38,604 bases of DNA from a virus: IMG/VR virus record IMGVR_UViG_3300013297_000012, positions 1 to 38,604 of that record; one strand, given 5' to 3'. Every line of letters begins with the position of its first letter. The stretch's first letter is position 1. This document shows positions 23,940 to 34,236 of the stretch, one piece after another. Made by a program: the position numbers and the translations under genes. A model generated the notes under the pieces. That model did no database searches and was not told the origin of the DNA. It saw nothing but the letters and a program-made list of their open reading frames with translations.

Positions 23940-23990
23940 GACGCATTACCGGGCAGTCTCGAAAGAGGCTTACCCGGTTTTGTGCGTTGT
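23940..23990 (+). ncRNA. Conserved intergenic RNA element, copy 1
   Basis: ACCGGG (23948-23953) pairs with CCCGGT (23973-23978). Inside is GTCTC-GAAA-GAGGC with a GNRA tetraloop. ACGCA/TGCGT close the base. Ends with the TGCGTTG form of the common 3' tail. Confidence 0.75.
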
Positions 23991-24083
23991 GAGGCTAGCT
24001 TTGACAACGATAGGTCAAATGGCTGGCGCTGCACGTGCCTTTGGCGTCACGATACTGTGACACCAATGAAGAAAGGGAACCGA

Positions 24084-24338
24084 ATGGCTTACACGCAAGA
24101 TACATGGGTTTTGAATGTCGCGACGCGTCCTAATGGTTACGTTCCTCGCGACCAATGGGATACGGGCTTTCGGCATTTCGCCCGGATCGAATTACCTCCG
24201 GAACTCAATGAAGCAATGGCTTATGAACGGGCTTGCTTGATTGTCGCGGCTTTCGAGCAAGGTTTGCCGGAAAGCAACTGGAAGCTTGAACTAACGCGTT
24301 GGGAGTTGCGTGGTTACAAACGCGAATTCAAATCTTAG
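24084..24338 (+). CDS. Small protein of unknown function (84 aa)
   Basis: The start is the ATG with AAAGGGAACCGA upstream; an ATG 18 bases earlier lies before that ribosome site and is less likely. The sequence is aromatic-rich and globular-looking (DTWVLNVATRPNGYVPRDQWD, NWKLELTRWELRGYKREF), with one Cys and no membrane helix. It is separated from the exported-protein gene by RNA element copy 1 and further inverted repeats (TTTGAC/GTCAAA, GTCAC/GTGAC) and is followed by copy 2. Function unknown. Confidence 0.72.
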   Translation: MAYTQDTWVLNVATRPNGYVPRDQWDTGFRHFARIELPPELNEAMAYERACLIVAAFEQGLPESNWKLELTRWELRGYKREFKS

Positions 24339-24388
24339 GCTTTATACCGGGCGGCATTGCAAAATGCCTACCCGGTTTAAGGCGTTAT
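24339..24388 (+). ncRNA. Conserved intergenic RNA element, copy 2
   Basis: ACCGGG (24346-24351) pairs with CCCGGT (24371-24376). The inner hairpin GGCATT-GCAA-AATGCC has a GNRA loop. The tail is TTTAAGGCGTTA. It ends 25 bases before the DUF3846 gene. Confidence 0.78.
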
Positions 24389-24413
24389 AAGAGCCATTAG
24401 AAAGGGAAACACA

Positions 24414-24743
24414 ATGGCAGATAAACGCGGTTACGTTGTCGTTATCTTTCATGCAAATGGCGTGATTGATAAGACGGTTCAACCGAAAAGACCGGATTAC
24501 GATCAATTGAGTAAGGCGGTTAATGGTCCGATTGAGACCATTCCGTATTTTACTCGCTTTGCCGGTCTTACGCGTGGCATCGCTTATGCGAATGAAGAGG
24601 GAATGTTGAAAGGCCTTTCCTATAATCGCAACGCGTCGAAAGCTTGGTTCGATGATTTGACGGCGATTGGTCAACCGTTTGACTCCCGCCGCGTTCATCT
24701 TTTGGGCGATGTGATCTTTTTTGCAAAGGAACCAAAGCAATGA
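24414..24743 (+). CDS. DUF3846 family protein
   Basis: This 109-aa protein follows the DUF3846 pattern well: VVVIFHANGVIDKTVQP at the start, LSKAVNGPIETIPYF, then IAYANEEGMLKGLSYNRNASK and the closing VHLLGDVIFFAKE. The family is widespread in phages and plasmids and its biochemical role is not established. AAAGGGAAACACA precedes the ATG, close behind RNA element copy 2. It overlaps the next gene as ATGA, so the two are cotranslated. Confidence 0.82.
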   Translation: MADKRGYVVVIFHANGVIDKTVQPKRPDYDQLSKAVNGPIETIPYFTRFAGLTRGIAYANEEGMLKGLSYNRNASKAWFDDLTAIGQPFDSRRVHLLGDVIFFAKEPKQ

Positions 24744-24961
24744 GAACGCGTGAATATATCGAACAGGCCTTAGACGACGGCCGTTTGTCTGTTGTCATGA
24801 CAAATGGTCGCGTTTGGAAGGCACGGCGCAACGGGAAAACGCAAACGTGGAAAACGCGGCCCAATGATTTCCGGATACCGATTAAAATGGGCCTGAAATC
24901 GTATGGGGCGATTGATCACCAAAATATGCAATCGCCCGAAATCGTGATTGAACCTGAATAG
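24740..24961 (+). CDS. Small basic protein coupled to DUF3846 gene
   Basis: This 73-aa protein starts within the ATGA overlap. It is basic in the middle (GRVWKARRNGKTQTWKTRP) and short-stranded, possibly an SH3-like or nucleic-acid-binding fold, but no family is recognised. It is directly followed by RNA element copy 3. Its tight coupling suggests it works with the DUF3846 protein. Confidence 0.72.
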   Translation: MRTREYIEQALDDGRLSVVMTNGRVWKARRNGKTQTWKTRPNDFRIPIKMGLKSYGAIDHQNMQSPEIVIEPE

Positions 24962-25013
24962 CTTTAAAGCCGGGCGCTGTTGCAAAACAGCTACCCGGCT
25001 TTAGGCATTAGTG
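24961..25013 (+). ncRNA. Conserved intergenic RNA element, copy 3
   Basis: The longest outer stem: AAAGCCGGG (24966-24974) pairs with CCCGGCTTT (24994-25002). The inner hairpin CTGTT-GCAA-AACAG has a GNRA loop. The tail is TTTAGGCATTA. It ends 20 bases before the next ATG. Confidence 0.8.
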
Positions 25014-25033
25014 AAGCATGAAAGGGGAAACAA

Positions 25034-25357
25034 ATGCGGTTCACTGATAAAGAGTTACAATCGGTTCCCAAGCTCTTTAAAATCGGTTATGAAGCCGGTT
25101 TTCGAGCGGGTTGGGATGAAAGCCCGAAAGCCTTGCCCCTCTCGACTAGTGGGTATGGTTCCTGTCAATCCGCTGTGATCGTTCTCTATGCGGATACGAT
25201 TGTGCAATTGGCTCATGAAATCAAAGCGCGGCGTTGGTACCGTTCAAGTGGTCCGGGGCAATGTTTTGGCGGAACGTGTAAGCCAATCATGATTCATAGG
25301 GGCGATGGAACTCAACTCGAAGCGATTTGCGTGGTAAGCTCGCTTTGGGATGTTTAA
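25034..25357 (+). CDS. Small protein of unknown function (107 aa)
   Basis: AAAGGGGAAACAA serves the ATG. The protein has a helical N-terminus (KELQSVPKLFKIGYEAGFRAG) and a Ser/Gly-rich middle. Its C-terminal strands contain Cys residues (CFGGTCKPIMIHRGDGTQLEA, ICVV). The CFGGTC pair could bind metal or be structural. No known family or membrane helix is seen. It lies between RNA elements 3 and 4 in the small-gene cassette. Confidence 0.7.
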   Translation: MRFTDKELQSVPKLFKIGYEAGFRAGWDESPKALPLSTSGYGSCQSAVIVLYADTIVQLAHEIKARRWYRSSGPGQCFGGTCKPIMIHRGDGTQLEAICVVSSLWDV

Positions 25358-25419
25358 GAAGCGTGGCGGAATTCGCTTTATCCGCATCGGCAGACTAAAC
25401 ATTCAATGGAGCATCCGAC

Positions 25420-25677
25420 GTGCCAATACAAGCAATCCTAGTGCGGTTTCATGGGCCGAGTCAGTTTCGCGGTTCCAGAGTCACTGCAATGTGCCAAGCA
25501 AAGACGATTACCAAATCGCGCGTTTACGAATTGAACGATTATGCGAACGCGCAAAAAATCGTGTCTGAGTTGTGTAAAACTTTAGACTGGCATGGCAAGT
25601 TGCATTGTGGTATAACGCGGCTTGGCGAATATGTCTTTGTTTTCGAGACCAACGAAGACAATAGCTTGACAGTCTAA
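25420..25677 (+). CDS. Small protein of unknown function (85 aa, GTG start)
   Basis: The start is a GTG with GGAG 8 bases upstream. The alternative frame starting at 25350 overlaps the previous gene, has no ribosome-binding site and ends mid-gene. The product has a helical middle (SRVYELNDYANAQKIVSELCK) and a C-terminal strand pattern (KLHCGITRLGEYVFVFETNED). RNA element copy 4 begins directly after the stop. Function unknown. Confidence 0.65.
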   Translation: MPIQAILVRFHGPSQFRGSRVTAMCQAKTITKSRVYELNDYANAQKIVSELCKTLDWHGKLHCGITRLGEYVFVFETNEDNSLTV

Positions 25678-25723
25678 CCTTATGCCGGGCGGCCTTAATT
25701 GGCCTACCCGGCTTAAGGCGTTA
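25675..25723 (+). ncRNA. Conserved intergenic RNA element, copy 4
   Basis: GCCGGG (25684-25689) pairs with CCCGGC (25707-25712). The inner hairpin GGCC-TTAATT-GGCC lacks the GNRA loop. The tail TTAAGGCGTTA merges into the next stem. Confidence 0.75.
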
Positions 25724-25804
25724 GGAACGGTGATTAGGTGGGTCTTTGACCGCGATCTAGCTACCTGTGCCACAAGGTACAGGATAGAAGCAGCACCGTC
25801 CTAA
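25721..25804 (+). promoter_or_regulatory. Three-way-junction-like leader of the next gene
   Basis: TTAGG-A-ACGGTG (25721-25732) pairs with CACCGTCCTAA (25794-25804), leaving one bulged A. Inside are GGTC-TTT-GACC (25741-25751) and CCTGTGCC-ACAA-GGTACAGG (25764-25783). The closing strand ends 1 base before the GGGAG ribosome-binding site. The 5' strand overlaps the tail of RNA element 4, so the two folds may compete. Confidence 0.55.
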
Positions 25805-25818
25805 TGGGAGATTATACT

Positions 25819-26046
25819 ATGGCGAAACGTGGTCCGGCTGATAAGAAGTCGGGTTATCGTGCGGTTGCGGGAGGCATCGCGACCAACAGTTACATGCGGG
25901 ATATGGGACGTTTCACGCTGCGTTTCGATCCCCGCTCAGTTGAGCAAGCGGACCAAACCCGTTCAATGGTCAATATGAAGGGTGGAAGTGAAGCGGAACG
26001 GCGCCGTGCCAACCATCACAGGGGCATACAGGCCCAATCTGATTAA
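25819..26046 (+). CDS. Small basic protein (75 aa)
   Basis: The start is the second of two in-frame ATGs, because GGGAGA lies 7-8 bases before it. The protein is rich in Arg, Lys, Gly and Ser (AKRGPADKKSGYRAVAGG, GSEAERRRANHHRG) with no membrane segment. It could bind nucleic acid; this is inferred from charge. It is the last gene of the RNA-element cassette and is followed by an exact palindrome copy and a different hairpin. Confidence 0.68.
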   Translation: MAKRGPADKKSGYRAVAGGIATNSYMRDMGRFTLRFDPRSVEQADQTRSMVNMKGGSEAERRRANHHRGIQAQSD

Positions 26047-26049
26047 CCT

Positions 26050-26064
26050 TGTGTGACTCACACA
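26050..26064. repeat. Palindrome TGTGTGACTCACACA (exact)
   Basis: Ends the small-gene cassette; extended to TTGTGTGACTCACACAA. Confidence 0.95.
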
Positions 26065-26073
26065 ATAGACTTG

Positions 26074-26125
26074 ACGGCTAGCCTTAAATGTGCTAGCCGT
26101 TAGGCCTGTTGTAATGATGCAACAG
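26074..26125 (+). promoter_or_regulatory. Double hairpin, possible diverged fifth RNA element
   Basis: ACGGCTAGC (26074-26082) pairs with GCTAGCCGT (26092-26100), followed by TAGGCCTGTT, which resembles the tail of the four elements. A second stem CCTGTTG/CAACAGG follows. The CCGGGC/TACCCGG core is absent, so membership is uncertain. Confidence 0.5.
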
Positions 26126-26685: not shown

Positions 26686-27615
26686 ATGTCGAAAGCAGCG
26701 AAGAAAGCCACCCCGGCGAAGGGCAAGAGCAAGCCGGAAACCGAAGTTCAGTCGGGCGACGATACCGGCATGAACCTTGTGCCGACGATTAAGACCGGCG
26801 CACTGTCGAAAGACGTCGGCCCGATGGTCATTGCCGGATTGGCAAAGGCTTACGAGGACGAAAAGAAGGCAAACGAGCTTATCGATGCCGTCAAGGCAAA
26901 GCGGTATGACTTGCTTGCCGCAACCACTGCTGCGATTGTCAAGGCGGCAAAGGCGGATGACTCGATTGATCTTTCCGCCGCGTTCAAAGACAACAAAAAG
27001 GCAATCAATCTGATGAACGCTCAGATTGGGCTTGCGCTCGGTTTCCGTGAAGTCGAGACGTCGGGCGAGGGTGATAAGGCGAAGTCGCGGCTTGTCTATG
27101 CGAAGTCGGTTTCCAAGTATTTCCCGACTGCGAAAGACCCGAAAGATGCGCCTGCGACGATCCAGAAGGCGACCACGCGCAGCAACTTTATGCATCTGGT
27201 CAAGAAGTGTGCAATGGCTGCACATGCCATTGTGCTGAAAGACTTGGACATCAAGAAAGATGCCAAGACCGGAACCCTTCAGATCACCGGCCCGGCTGTG
27301 AACAAGACTTTCGGCGCCGAAAGCGTGTTGCTTGACGAAAAGATCACCGTCGGCGAGGGTGAGAACAAGACCAAGCTCAAGAAAAAGCCGTCATTTACGG
27401 CGCTGGCCGAAATGGCTGCCGAAAGCGAGGGTAAGGTTGTCGCCAAGCGTGGCCAAACGGGTACCTCCGGAACTGCTATCGATCCCTCGGTTGCAATCCA
27501 GAGTGTCTGCACAAGCCTCTTGAGCATCCTCCCGAAGCTCAAAGCTCTCGATCCCAAGACGACCGAAAGCCTCAAGGCGGCCCGAACCGCTATTGACAAC
27601 GCCCTGAAAACCTGA
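26686..27615 (+). CDS. Conserved-looking early protein of unknown function (309 aa)
   Basis: AGGAGATTACCAA serves the ATG. The N-terminus is Lys/Ala-rich and basic, then mostly helical (MVIAGLAKAYEDEKKANELID, LLAATTAAIVKAAKADDSID). The middle holds a conserved-looking stretch (TRSNFMHLVKKCAMAAHAIVL) and the C-terminus is helical again (IQSVCTSLLSILPKLKALDP). There are no catalytic motifs. It has its own strong terminator, so it is a single-gene unit behind a repeat hairpin. A DNA-binding or structural role in takeover is possible but not shown. Confidence 0.75.
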   Translation: MSKAAKKATPAKGKSKPETEVQSGDDTGMNLVPTIKTGALSKDVGPMVIAGLAKAYEDEKKANELIDAVKAKRYDLLAATTAAIVKAAKADDSIDLSAAFKDNKKAINLMNAQIGLALGFREVETSGEGDKAKSRLVYAKSVSKYFPTAKDPKDAPATIQKATTRSNFMHLVKKCAMAAHAIVLKDLDIKKDAKTGTLQITGPAVNKTFGAESVLLDEKITVGEGENKTKLKKKPSFTALAEMAAESEGKVVAKRGQTGTSGTAIDPSVAIQSVCTSLLSILPKLKALDPKTTESLKAARTAIDNALKT

Positions 27616-27641
27616 TATAACAGTCAGGCTAGAAGGGAATG

Positions 27642-27673
27642 ACCCCCGGTAGCAATACCGGGGGTTTCTTTTT
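27642..27673 (+). terminator. Rightward intrinsic terminator
   Basis: Perfect 10-bp stem ACCCCCGGTA/TACCGGGGGT with a GCAA loop, followed by TTTCTTTTT. Ends the 309-aa gene transcript. Confidence 0.92.
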
Positions 27674-27678
27674 GACTG

Positions 27679-27693
27679 TGTGTGACTCACATA
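27679..27693. repeat. Palindrome TGTGTGACTCACATA
   Basis: Between the terminator and the AAGGAGG of the next gene. Confidence 0.92.
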
Positions 27694-33354: not shown

Positions 33355-34236
33355 ATGGCGAAAGACAAGCCAAAGCATCCTACAAGCACACTAGCAGGTG
33401 GTATCAATGTCGTTAAAGGCCCAGAACTTCAAACTCGTATGGCAATCCTTCTTTGGGGAGCAGCCACTTGTGGTAAGTCAACTTTTGCTGCAACGGCTCC
33501 CGGTGATAAGCTGTGGCTTAGCTTTGGCGACAATGAGCATGTCTCTGTTGCTGGCCGTGATGATGTTTTCGTGGCCAATGTTAGCGATATGCGTTACGAC
33601 GATCTTTTTAAGCACGCTCAGTCTGATAACCCTTTTGGACTGGATCAGTACCTCGCCGAACATACCAACATCGCAACTGTGGTCGTTGACAGTACAACGG
33701 CTATCGAATACAAGGCACTCCAAAAAGCTGTGGGAACCGGAGTTGGAGCAGGCCGAGGCTTTACACCTACTATGGAAACGCCGGGGCTATCTGCCTACGG
33801 AGGAAGAAACGCTATTCTACTCGAAGTCATTACAGGCTTACTGCGTGTTACAGCCAAGCACGGAGTTCACATTATCTTCACCGCACACGAAGCAGACCCC
33901 GTGCTTGTTCCGGGTCAATCAGATACTATCGACTACATCGCAGTACAGTTGGGCGGAAAACTTGTTAATGGTGTTACATGGCGACTGTCCGAAATATGGT
34001 TCATGTCTCAAGAAACTACAGGAGACAGGGTTCGCAAGCTCGCTGTGCGCCCTACACGAAAGAGGCGCCCCATGAAGTCGCGCATGTTTGCGCAGAATGG
34101 AGACCCTGAGTTTACGCTGGACTACGACAACACAAAGCCCGACAAAGGGCAGATGACAATTGCCAAGTTTTACGACGAATGGGTTGACTCGGAATATTCG
34201 AAAATCCCTGTCCCCAAGACCGAGCGTAAGAAGTAA
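33355..34236 (+). CDS. Sak4-like RecA-fold ATPase
   Basis: This 293-aa protein has a P-loop at residues 35-43 (GAATCGKST), a Walker B strand at 107-112 (ATVVVD followed by STT) and a sensor-like strand (VHIIFTAHE). The pattern and length fit the Sak4 group of phage recombination ATPases, which help single-strand annealing together with an SSB. Neighbours support a recombination and replication role: nuclease upstream, possible ssDNA-binding protein and RecD-like helicase downstream. The ATG follows AGAAAGTAAGTC. Confidence 0.8.
   Translation: MAKDKPKHPTSTLAGGINVVKGPELQTRMAILLWGAATCGKSTFAATAPGDKLWLSFGDNEHVSVAGRDDVFVANVSDMRYDDLFKHAQSDNPFGLDQYLAEHTNIATVVVDSTTAIEYKALQKAVGTGVGAGRGFTPTMETPGLSAYGGRNAILLEVITGLLRVTAKHGVHIIFTAHEADPVLVPGQSDTIDYIAVQLGGKLVNGVTWRLSEIWFMSQETTGDRVRKLAVRPTRKRRPMKSRMFAQNGDPEFTLDYDNTKPDKGQMTIAKFYDEWVDSEYSKIPVPKTERKK

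Follow-up and report, generated by a model that had tools for sequence, protein, structure and literature searches.

What do similarly built hairpins do when a phage places them, copy after copy, between one small gene and the next? The window, by which we mean the whole 38,604-nucleotide stretch of viral DNA analysed here (IMG/VR record IMGVR_UViG_3300013297_000012), raises this question on its plus strand, where an earlier note, made from the letters alone, had described four copies of a structured RNA element. All four are present where that note placed them, and the pattern CCGGGC-N(8-36)-CCCGG, which matches the window four times, is expected 0.44 times from shuffles. The copies, the small genes that follow them and a second structured leader part are arranged as follows:

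23941..23987, plus strand: element copy 1, with lower stem, ACCGGG/CCCGGT middle stem, C/UA internal loop, 6-bp inner stem and GAAA loop
24084..24338, plus strand: small gene of 84 aa 3' of copy 1, no family match
24339..24383, plus strand: element copy 2, architecture as in copy 1, GCAA loop
24414..24743, plus strand: small gene of 109 aa 3' of copy 2, weak match to phrog_3777 (no assigned function)
24963..25005, plus strand: element copy 3, GCCGGG/CCCGGC middle stem, GCAA loop
25034..25357, plus strand: small gene of 107 aa 3' of copy 3, no family match
25678..25718, plus strand: element copy 4, 4-bp inner stem, UUAAUU loop
25720..25810, plus strand: second structured leader part with a predicted branched fold, between copy 4 and the gene at 25819
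25819..26046, plus strand: small gene of 75 aa 3' of copy 4, no family match

Each copy folds as a single hairpin of about 26-28 kcal/mol with z scores from -4.5 to -5.4 (copy 1, -26.2 kcal/mol and z -5.1; copy 2, -27.4 and -5.4; copy 3, -26.5 and -5.0; copy 4, -28.0 and -4.5), and none of 200 shuffles equalled the stability of a window copy. From bottom to top, the architecture comprises a lower stem, a 1x1 mismatch (a position that is paired in copy 3), a 6-bp middle stem, a 1x2 internal loop (C/UA), an inner stem and a loop. Much of this had been seen correctly: the outer stem does covary between A-U and G-C (ACCGGG/CCCGGT against GCCGGG/CCCGGC), the inner stems are unrelated in sequence and still pair, and three of the four loops are GNRA tetraloops (GAAA, GCAA, GCAA), the remaining one being UUAAUU. 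The lower stem had been missed. The earlier note had given a tail TTNAGGCRTTR, which copies 2-4 carry and copy 1, reading TTTTGTGCGTTG, does not; its TTNAGG part is mostly the 3' strand of this third stem, whose 5' strand is formed by the bases that precede CCGGGC. Every one of the four copies keeps the same register here. The lower stem covaries too, and among the window copies alone changes on both sides occur in 9 of the 17 pairs, a number that none of 500 shuffles reached. Nor are the hairpins ordinary terminators, as had likewise been claimed: intrinsic terminators combine a GC hairpin with an immediate T run, no run of five or more T follows any window copy, and none of the four appears in the terminator scan list.

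The modelled ends of copies 2 and 3 (24388 and 25011) lie 25 nt and 22 nt from the ATG codons at 24414 and 25034, respectively, and gene 24740-24961, which overlaps the stop of gene 24414..24743, carries no element. The leader part at 25720-25810 (-37.5 kcal/mol, z -4.2) has no Rfam match; in relatives, a smaller second hairpin often occupies the corresponding position behind the element.

On either side of the four elements lies a copy of a palindrome that the phage repeats, at 23924 and at 26052. This palindrome, TGTGTGASTCACACA (core TGTGASTCACA), is scattered over the entire phage genome, before and after the strand switch, with 35 sites from 399 to 38303 (e.g. 2116, 10140, 23924, 26052 and 33307) and about 2 chance matches expected for its looser pattern. 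It also occurs in the relatives L009, L010, L012 and L089-L091, and is similar to the 17-bp palindromes repeated in Cluster O mycobacteriophages (PMC4351075). Two further hairpins adjoin it: a strong one at 26060-26115 (-30.9 kcal/mol, z -7.7), right behind the palindrome at 26052, whose tail TTAGGCCTGTTG is similar to the element tails and which has no CCGGG core, and a strong terminator-like hairpin with a T run at 27641-27675, directly upstream of the palindrome copy at 27681.

Is the element peculiar to this phage? A pattern scan of IMG/VR returned 21 contigs, the majority with a real element, and two further scans returned 46 and 27 contigs. Covariance models were built from the window copies only (R1), from 18 copies (R2) and from 109 copies (R3). 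R1, the check that the earlier note had proposed, recovers the same element in other phages and in prophages, among them copies of the CCCGG/CCGGG type, which the first IMG/VR pattern could not select. R3 yields 114 matches, of which 103 are distinct, mainly in soil-phage contigs and also in 8 bacterial genomes; window copy 1 scores 31.9 bits, and a weak copy in L198 at 12224 (21.7 bits with R2) is absent from the R3 list. The terminase relatives of the window phage carry no copy (37 whole records searched with R1, 82 loci with R2); a protein query with gene 26686-27615 found no relatives, and one with 33355-34236 found three related fragments that have the same palindrome and lack the element. 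Likewise, the Bradyrhizobium phages ppBjS10J-1 and BDU-MI-1 have no copy, and blastn of the consensus element against phage and plasmid collections gave chance-level matches only. A match in Caulobacter phage Sansa, inside a CDS, was discarded as chance level, as were two matches to the pattern TACCCGGYTTWAGGCRTTR, in which the hairpin is absent; pattern matches in genome contigs were mostly chance as well, the sole clear copy by score being that of PARB1.

Rfam 15 gave no match at the gathering score in the window and in seven element-bearing loci. At E values up to 5, it gave none in the window region and sub-threshold matches only in L188 and L213, the best of which sit at the L188 terminator; literature searches found no such motif. 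By sequence and predicted fold, these hairpins represent a new, cis-acting RNA family with no entry in Rfam 15, which phages and prophages of Bradyrhizobium-type bacteria position between successive genes of short operons. The family is new by Rfam, but its kind is known: cis-acting phage hairpins at gene starts include ESAS, the T7 processing sites and put. Cluster K mycobacteriophages each carry several SAS and ESAS repeats, which have no known function, ahead of their start codons; SAS, linear and 13 bp long, reads 5'-GGGATAGGAGCCC and lies at translation starts, and ESAS are 17-bp imperfect inverted repeats with a consensus for each genome (PMC3203893). The present element shares with them the multiple copies per phage and the place upstream of starts, but its inner and lower stems change freely while pairing, its core is a C/UA internal loop, and it has another sequence, occurs in other hosts and is spread over unrelated phages. 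The SAS sequence is absent from the element leaders examined.

With more copies, the case for a conserved structure becomes stronger. In an alignment of 98 distinct copies, compensatory changes occur in 16 of the 17 pairs, compared with 11 among 17 distinct copies, and 95.1% of the cells are paired, a fraction inflated by the fitting of this alignment to the model. Two-sided cells number 284 against 78.8 in shuffles; covariation scores 0.445, compared with 0.155 for shuffles, and collapses when the partner is slid by 1-3 columns. MAFFT alignments of the 4 and of the 17 distinct copies agree with this picture. Free variation in the length of the inner parts (8-17 nt) speaks against a coding sequence, and that reading was rejected. 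Given this pattern of substitution, the hairpin is almost certainly an RNA structure under selection, as had been proposed from the four copies. Neither of the outcomes that the earlier note had named as refuting, a lack of covariation in additional homologues or a match to a known Rfam family, was observed.

Which part of it is constant? The middle stem varies, being CCGGG/CCCGG in some copies, CCCGG/CCGGG in others and of the CGGGC type in a few. Nearly constant are G13-C38 and C14 (98/98), A37 (95/98) and U36 (94/98), that is, one G-C pair and the 1x2 internal loop with C opposite UA. Among the 98 parsed loops, GAAA occurs 37 times, GCAA 31 times and UUCG 6 times; the inner part is most commonly 10 or 12 nt long, and its stem can be as short as 3 bp. 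Since GNRA and UUCG loops can replace one another and the inner stem can shorten, what is kept constant is the internal loop and not the tetraloop, which seems to serve stability. The lower stem follows the consensus YTYA/TRAG, and the linker 3' of the hairpin ends in KUAG, with T at column 52 in 41 of 98 copies (GCAUUAG-like, about two fifths) and G in 53.

The positions of the copies are regular as well. A stop codon lies 12-16 nt upstream of the element in 79 of 103 distinct contexts, with a C/A-rich, G-poor stretch in between, and a start with a Shine-Dalgarno sequence follows within 8-50 nt in 79 of these contexts, compared with 6 antisense controls. The window copies 2-4 differ from this in that only 0 or 1 nt separates them from the stop codon before them. 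Behind the hairpin come the linker, often a second, unrelated hairpin, and then a mostly unpaired Shine-Dalgarno sequence of the AAGGGGA type; the second hairpin lies within a few nt in many leaders and is absent or weak in many copies. Where a locus has more than one copy, they share a strand, and as many as five occur within 2 kb. Judged by comparison of the copies, the element is a structure at the RNA level, in sense orientation, located after a stop codon and shortly before a Shine-Dalgarno sequence and start.

Elements usually sit between the genes of short operons. Before the upstream gene, a further element was found in 17 cases, a strong promoter with no element in 12 and neither of the two in 59, so that the operon picture rests on the resolvable minority; the promoter pattern has a background of 0.7% of 150-nt stretches. 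Within 1.5 kb, an intrinsic terminator (ACCCGCC..GGCGGGT-T(n) type) was found downstream in 35/82 cases compared with 15/93 upstream, where it should be borne in mind that these terminator and promoter statistics use simple patterns and that some loci include close relatives. Most of 13 inspected terminators are then followed by a TTGACA-type promoter and an element-free gene, the exceptions being L220 and L224. In L203 (by scan) and L179 (by eye), both lineage-A records, a promoter directly precedes the element, which is thus not strictly intercistronic. The proteins encoded downstream of elements gave no informative Pfam or PHROG family. As a whole, the context points to an intercistronic role.

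Some of these operons show further regularities. In L203 and L192 (lineage A), very short frames with a Shine-Dalgarno sequence (e.g. ATG GTC TAG) lie between element and main gene and are possible leader peptides. The promoters upstream of lineage-A operons in L183, L195, L203, L206 and L179 are overlapped by an operator-like repeat, ATCACGAAAATGTGATTTGAC. A repeated module follows terminators in L197 (11361-14560), L255, L227, L234, L208 and L272; it consists of an intrinsic terminator, a TTGACA promoter with an inverted repeat in its spacer (such as ATCCAATTTATTTGGAT) and a gene with an AAGGGGA Shine-Dalgarno sequence, and looks like a set of co-repressed phage promoters.

The carriers include unrelated phage lineages. 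Clustering of the ORFs of carrier records gives several groups, in which the window phage stands alone in its own:

G038, G040, G043, G047, G049, G052, G053 and G056: one carrier group
G041, G044, G054 and G057: a second
G042, G050, G051 and G424: a third
G244, G277, G278 and G437: a fourth

No protein family in this clustering spans all groups, although a small, fast-evolving phage protein would escape it. Of the bacterial loci with copies, L208 has genes for a recombinase, a terminase and a portal protein, and integrase- or phage-type genes were seen by inspection in L209, L213 and L214. In all, 8 of 392 sampled genomes in the family of Bradyrhizobiaceae PARB1 have copies (7 by R2, plus G198 by R3), whereas outside this family, with the query genome excepted, none was found in a class sample of 384 or a phylum sample of 397 (0/781 jointly; Fisher p 4e-4 for 7/391 against 0/781); as only 15-17 candidates per genome were scored, these counts are lower bounds. 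The combination of one host family with the lack of a shared phage protein suggests that a host factor may read the element.

What, then, might the hairpin do? We put the chance of an intercistronic, post-transcriptional role at about one half, and the best reading, with a probability of roughly 0.5, is an mRNA punctuation element between cistrons that is recognised by a host factor and would help adjacent genes to be expressed separately. On a polycistronic mRNA, the hairpin would fold just beyond a ribosome halted at the stop codon of the upstream gene. Judged by the footprint of a stopped ribosome, a spacing of 12-16 nt would place it just outside, so that it could stay folded during upstream translation, but this geometry is not universal, given that window copies 2-4 lie within 1 nt of the stop. 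A host factor, either a nuclease or an RNA-binding protein, would read the C/UA internal loop and the flanking G-C pair, perhaps together with the 3' linker, and, either by cleavage or by protection from decay, would separate the messages, or else would insulate downstream initiation; as a result, neighbouring cistrons would be expressed at different levels. Most predicted folds leave the Shine-Dalgarno sequence unpaired, which favours an ON or constitutive element over a start-masking switch. Only tentatively do we propose a narrower version, a sequence-specific punctuation mark whose C/UA loop is read by a host factor, so that the message is cut, protected or restarted, in unrelated phages of one bacterial family. 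Among the options listed in the earlier note (processing site, translational operator, new cis-regulatory RNA), the last fits best; sequence alone cannot choose one mechanism, and each single biochemical mechanism is, taken alone, unlikely.

One concrete form of the punctuation reading is a processing site for a host nuclease of the RNase III or RNase E type, at which an early polycistronic mRNA would be cut into separate messages. In phage T7, the early RNase III sites lie between genes as irregular hairpins, each with an internal loop, and punctuate the early polycistronic mRNA. Our element, known here as a predicted fold, is likewise an irregular intergenic hairpin with an internal loop, and its copies punctuate small-gene operons, several per operon. 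There is no phage trans factor in common, and 15 carrier records gave no RNase III domain, which would imply a host enzyme, and the GCAUUAG-like linkers also agree with such a site. However, compared with the T7 sites, the helix is short (5 + 6 + 3-4 bp, with two interruptions), the tetraloops are exchangeable and the loop sequence is strongly constant, which RNase III does not need; the remaining linkers, with G at column 52, are unlike an AU-rich RNase E site. Taken by itself, a nuclease site is conceivable, if unlikely.

Antitermination without a phage protein, in which host RNA polymerase, once bound by a nascent leader with two hairpins, reads through terminators, is known from phage HK022, whose put RNA measures about 70 nt, has two stem-loops, needs no phage protein, serves early genes and occurs in two copies per genome downstream of early promoters (PMC9378689). 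Like put, our element would be a cis-acting phage RNA that uses host machinery only; a second stem-loop stands a few nt behind it in many, not all, leaders, unrelated phages have it in common, and terminators lie 0.3-1 kb downstream. Yet put lies behind promoters, whereas the first genes behind promoters usually lack the present element, which instead precedes internal genes, up to five times in 2 kb; its second hairpin is variable, weak or missing in many copies, and the inspected terminators, mostly followed at once by a new promoter, resemble operon ends. This layout speaks for processing, decay blocking or insulation of initiation over antitermination, which we consider unlikely.

We regard a translational operator as equally unlikely. 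Here, a small phage- or host-encoded protein would bind the hairpin and repress or activate downstream translation, and the constant internal loop with its flanking pair, 8-50 nt 5' of the start, could form such a binding site. The Shine-Dalgarno sequence, however, lies outside the hairpin, unpaired in most folds, the hairpin does not overlap the start, and no phage protein in common was found.

Finally, hairpins at the gene borders of unrelated phages could be DNA-level or mobile elements that merely resemble RNA. REP hairpins also have GCCGG/CCGGC stems, together with a GTAG foot, and the REP/BIME elements of enterobacteria are, like ours, intercistronic GC-rich hairpins behind stop codons, some of which stabilise the upstream message. 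A REP/RAYT hairpin or attC-like recombination site is nevertheless highly improbable: the element is strictly sense-oriented and spaced to a start codon, its inner stems differ among the copies of one genome, its NNKTAG tail lies 3' and not 5' of the hairpin (unlike a REP foot) and is not GTAG in the window copies, and the RAYT (Y1) transposase domain is absent from the 15 carrier phage records searched, some of them fragments. Integron attC sites were considered as well and rejected, as such sites have R boxes, RYYYAAC/GTTRRRY, that pair at the base, and the lower stem of the element has no AAC/GTT pair.

The 114 matches, 103 of them distinct, add a well-supported structured RNA family to the phages of ecologically important soil bacteria, and it is a surprise that one element is common to phages without any detected shared protein. 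The small constant core makes the putative host factor findable by pull-down. Finally, the layout of promoter, plain first gene, element before later genes and terminator offers a testable case of phages setting separate expression levels within one message.
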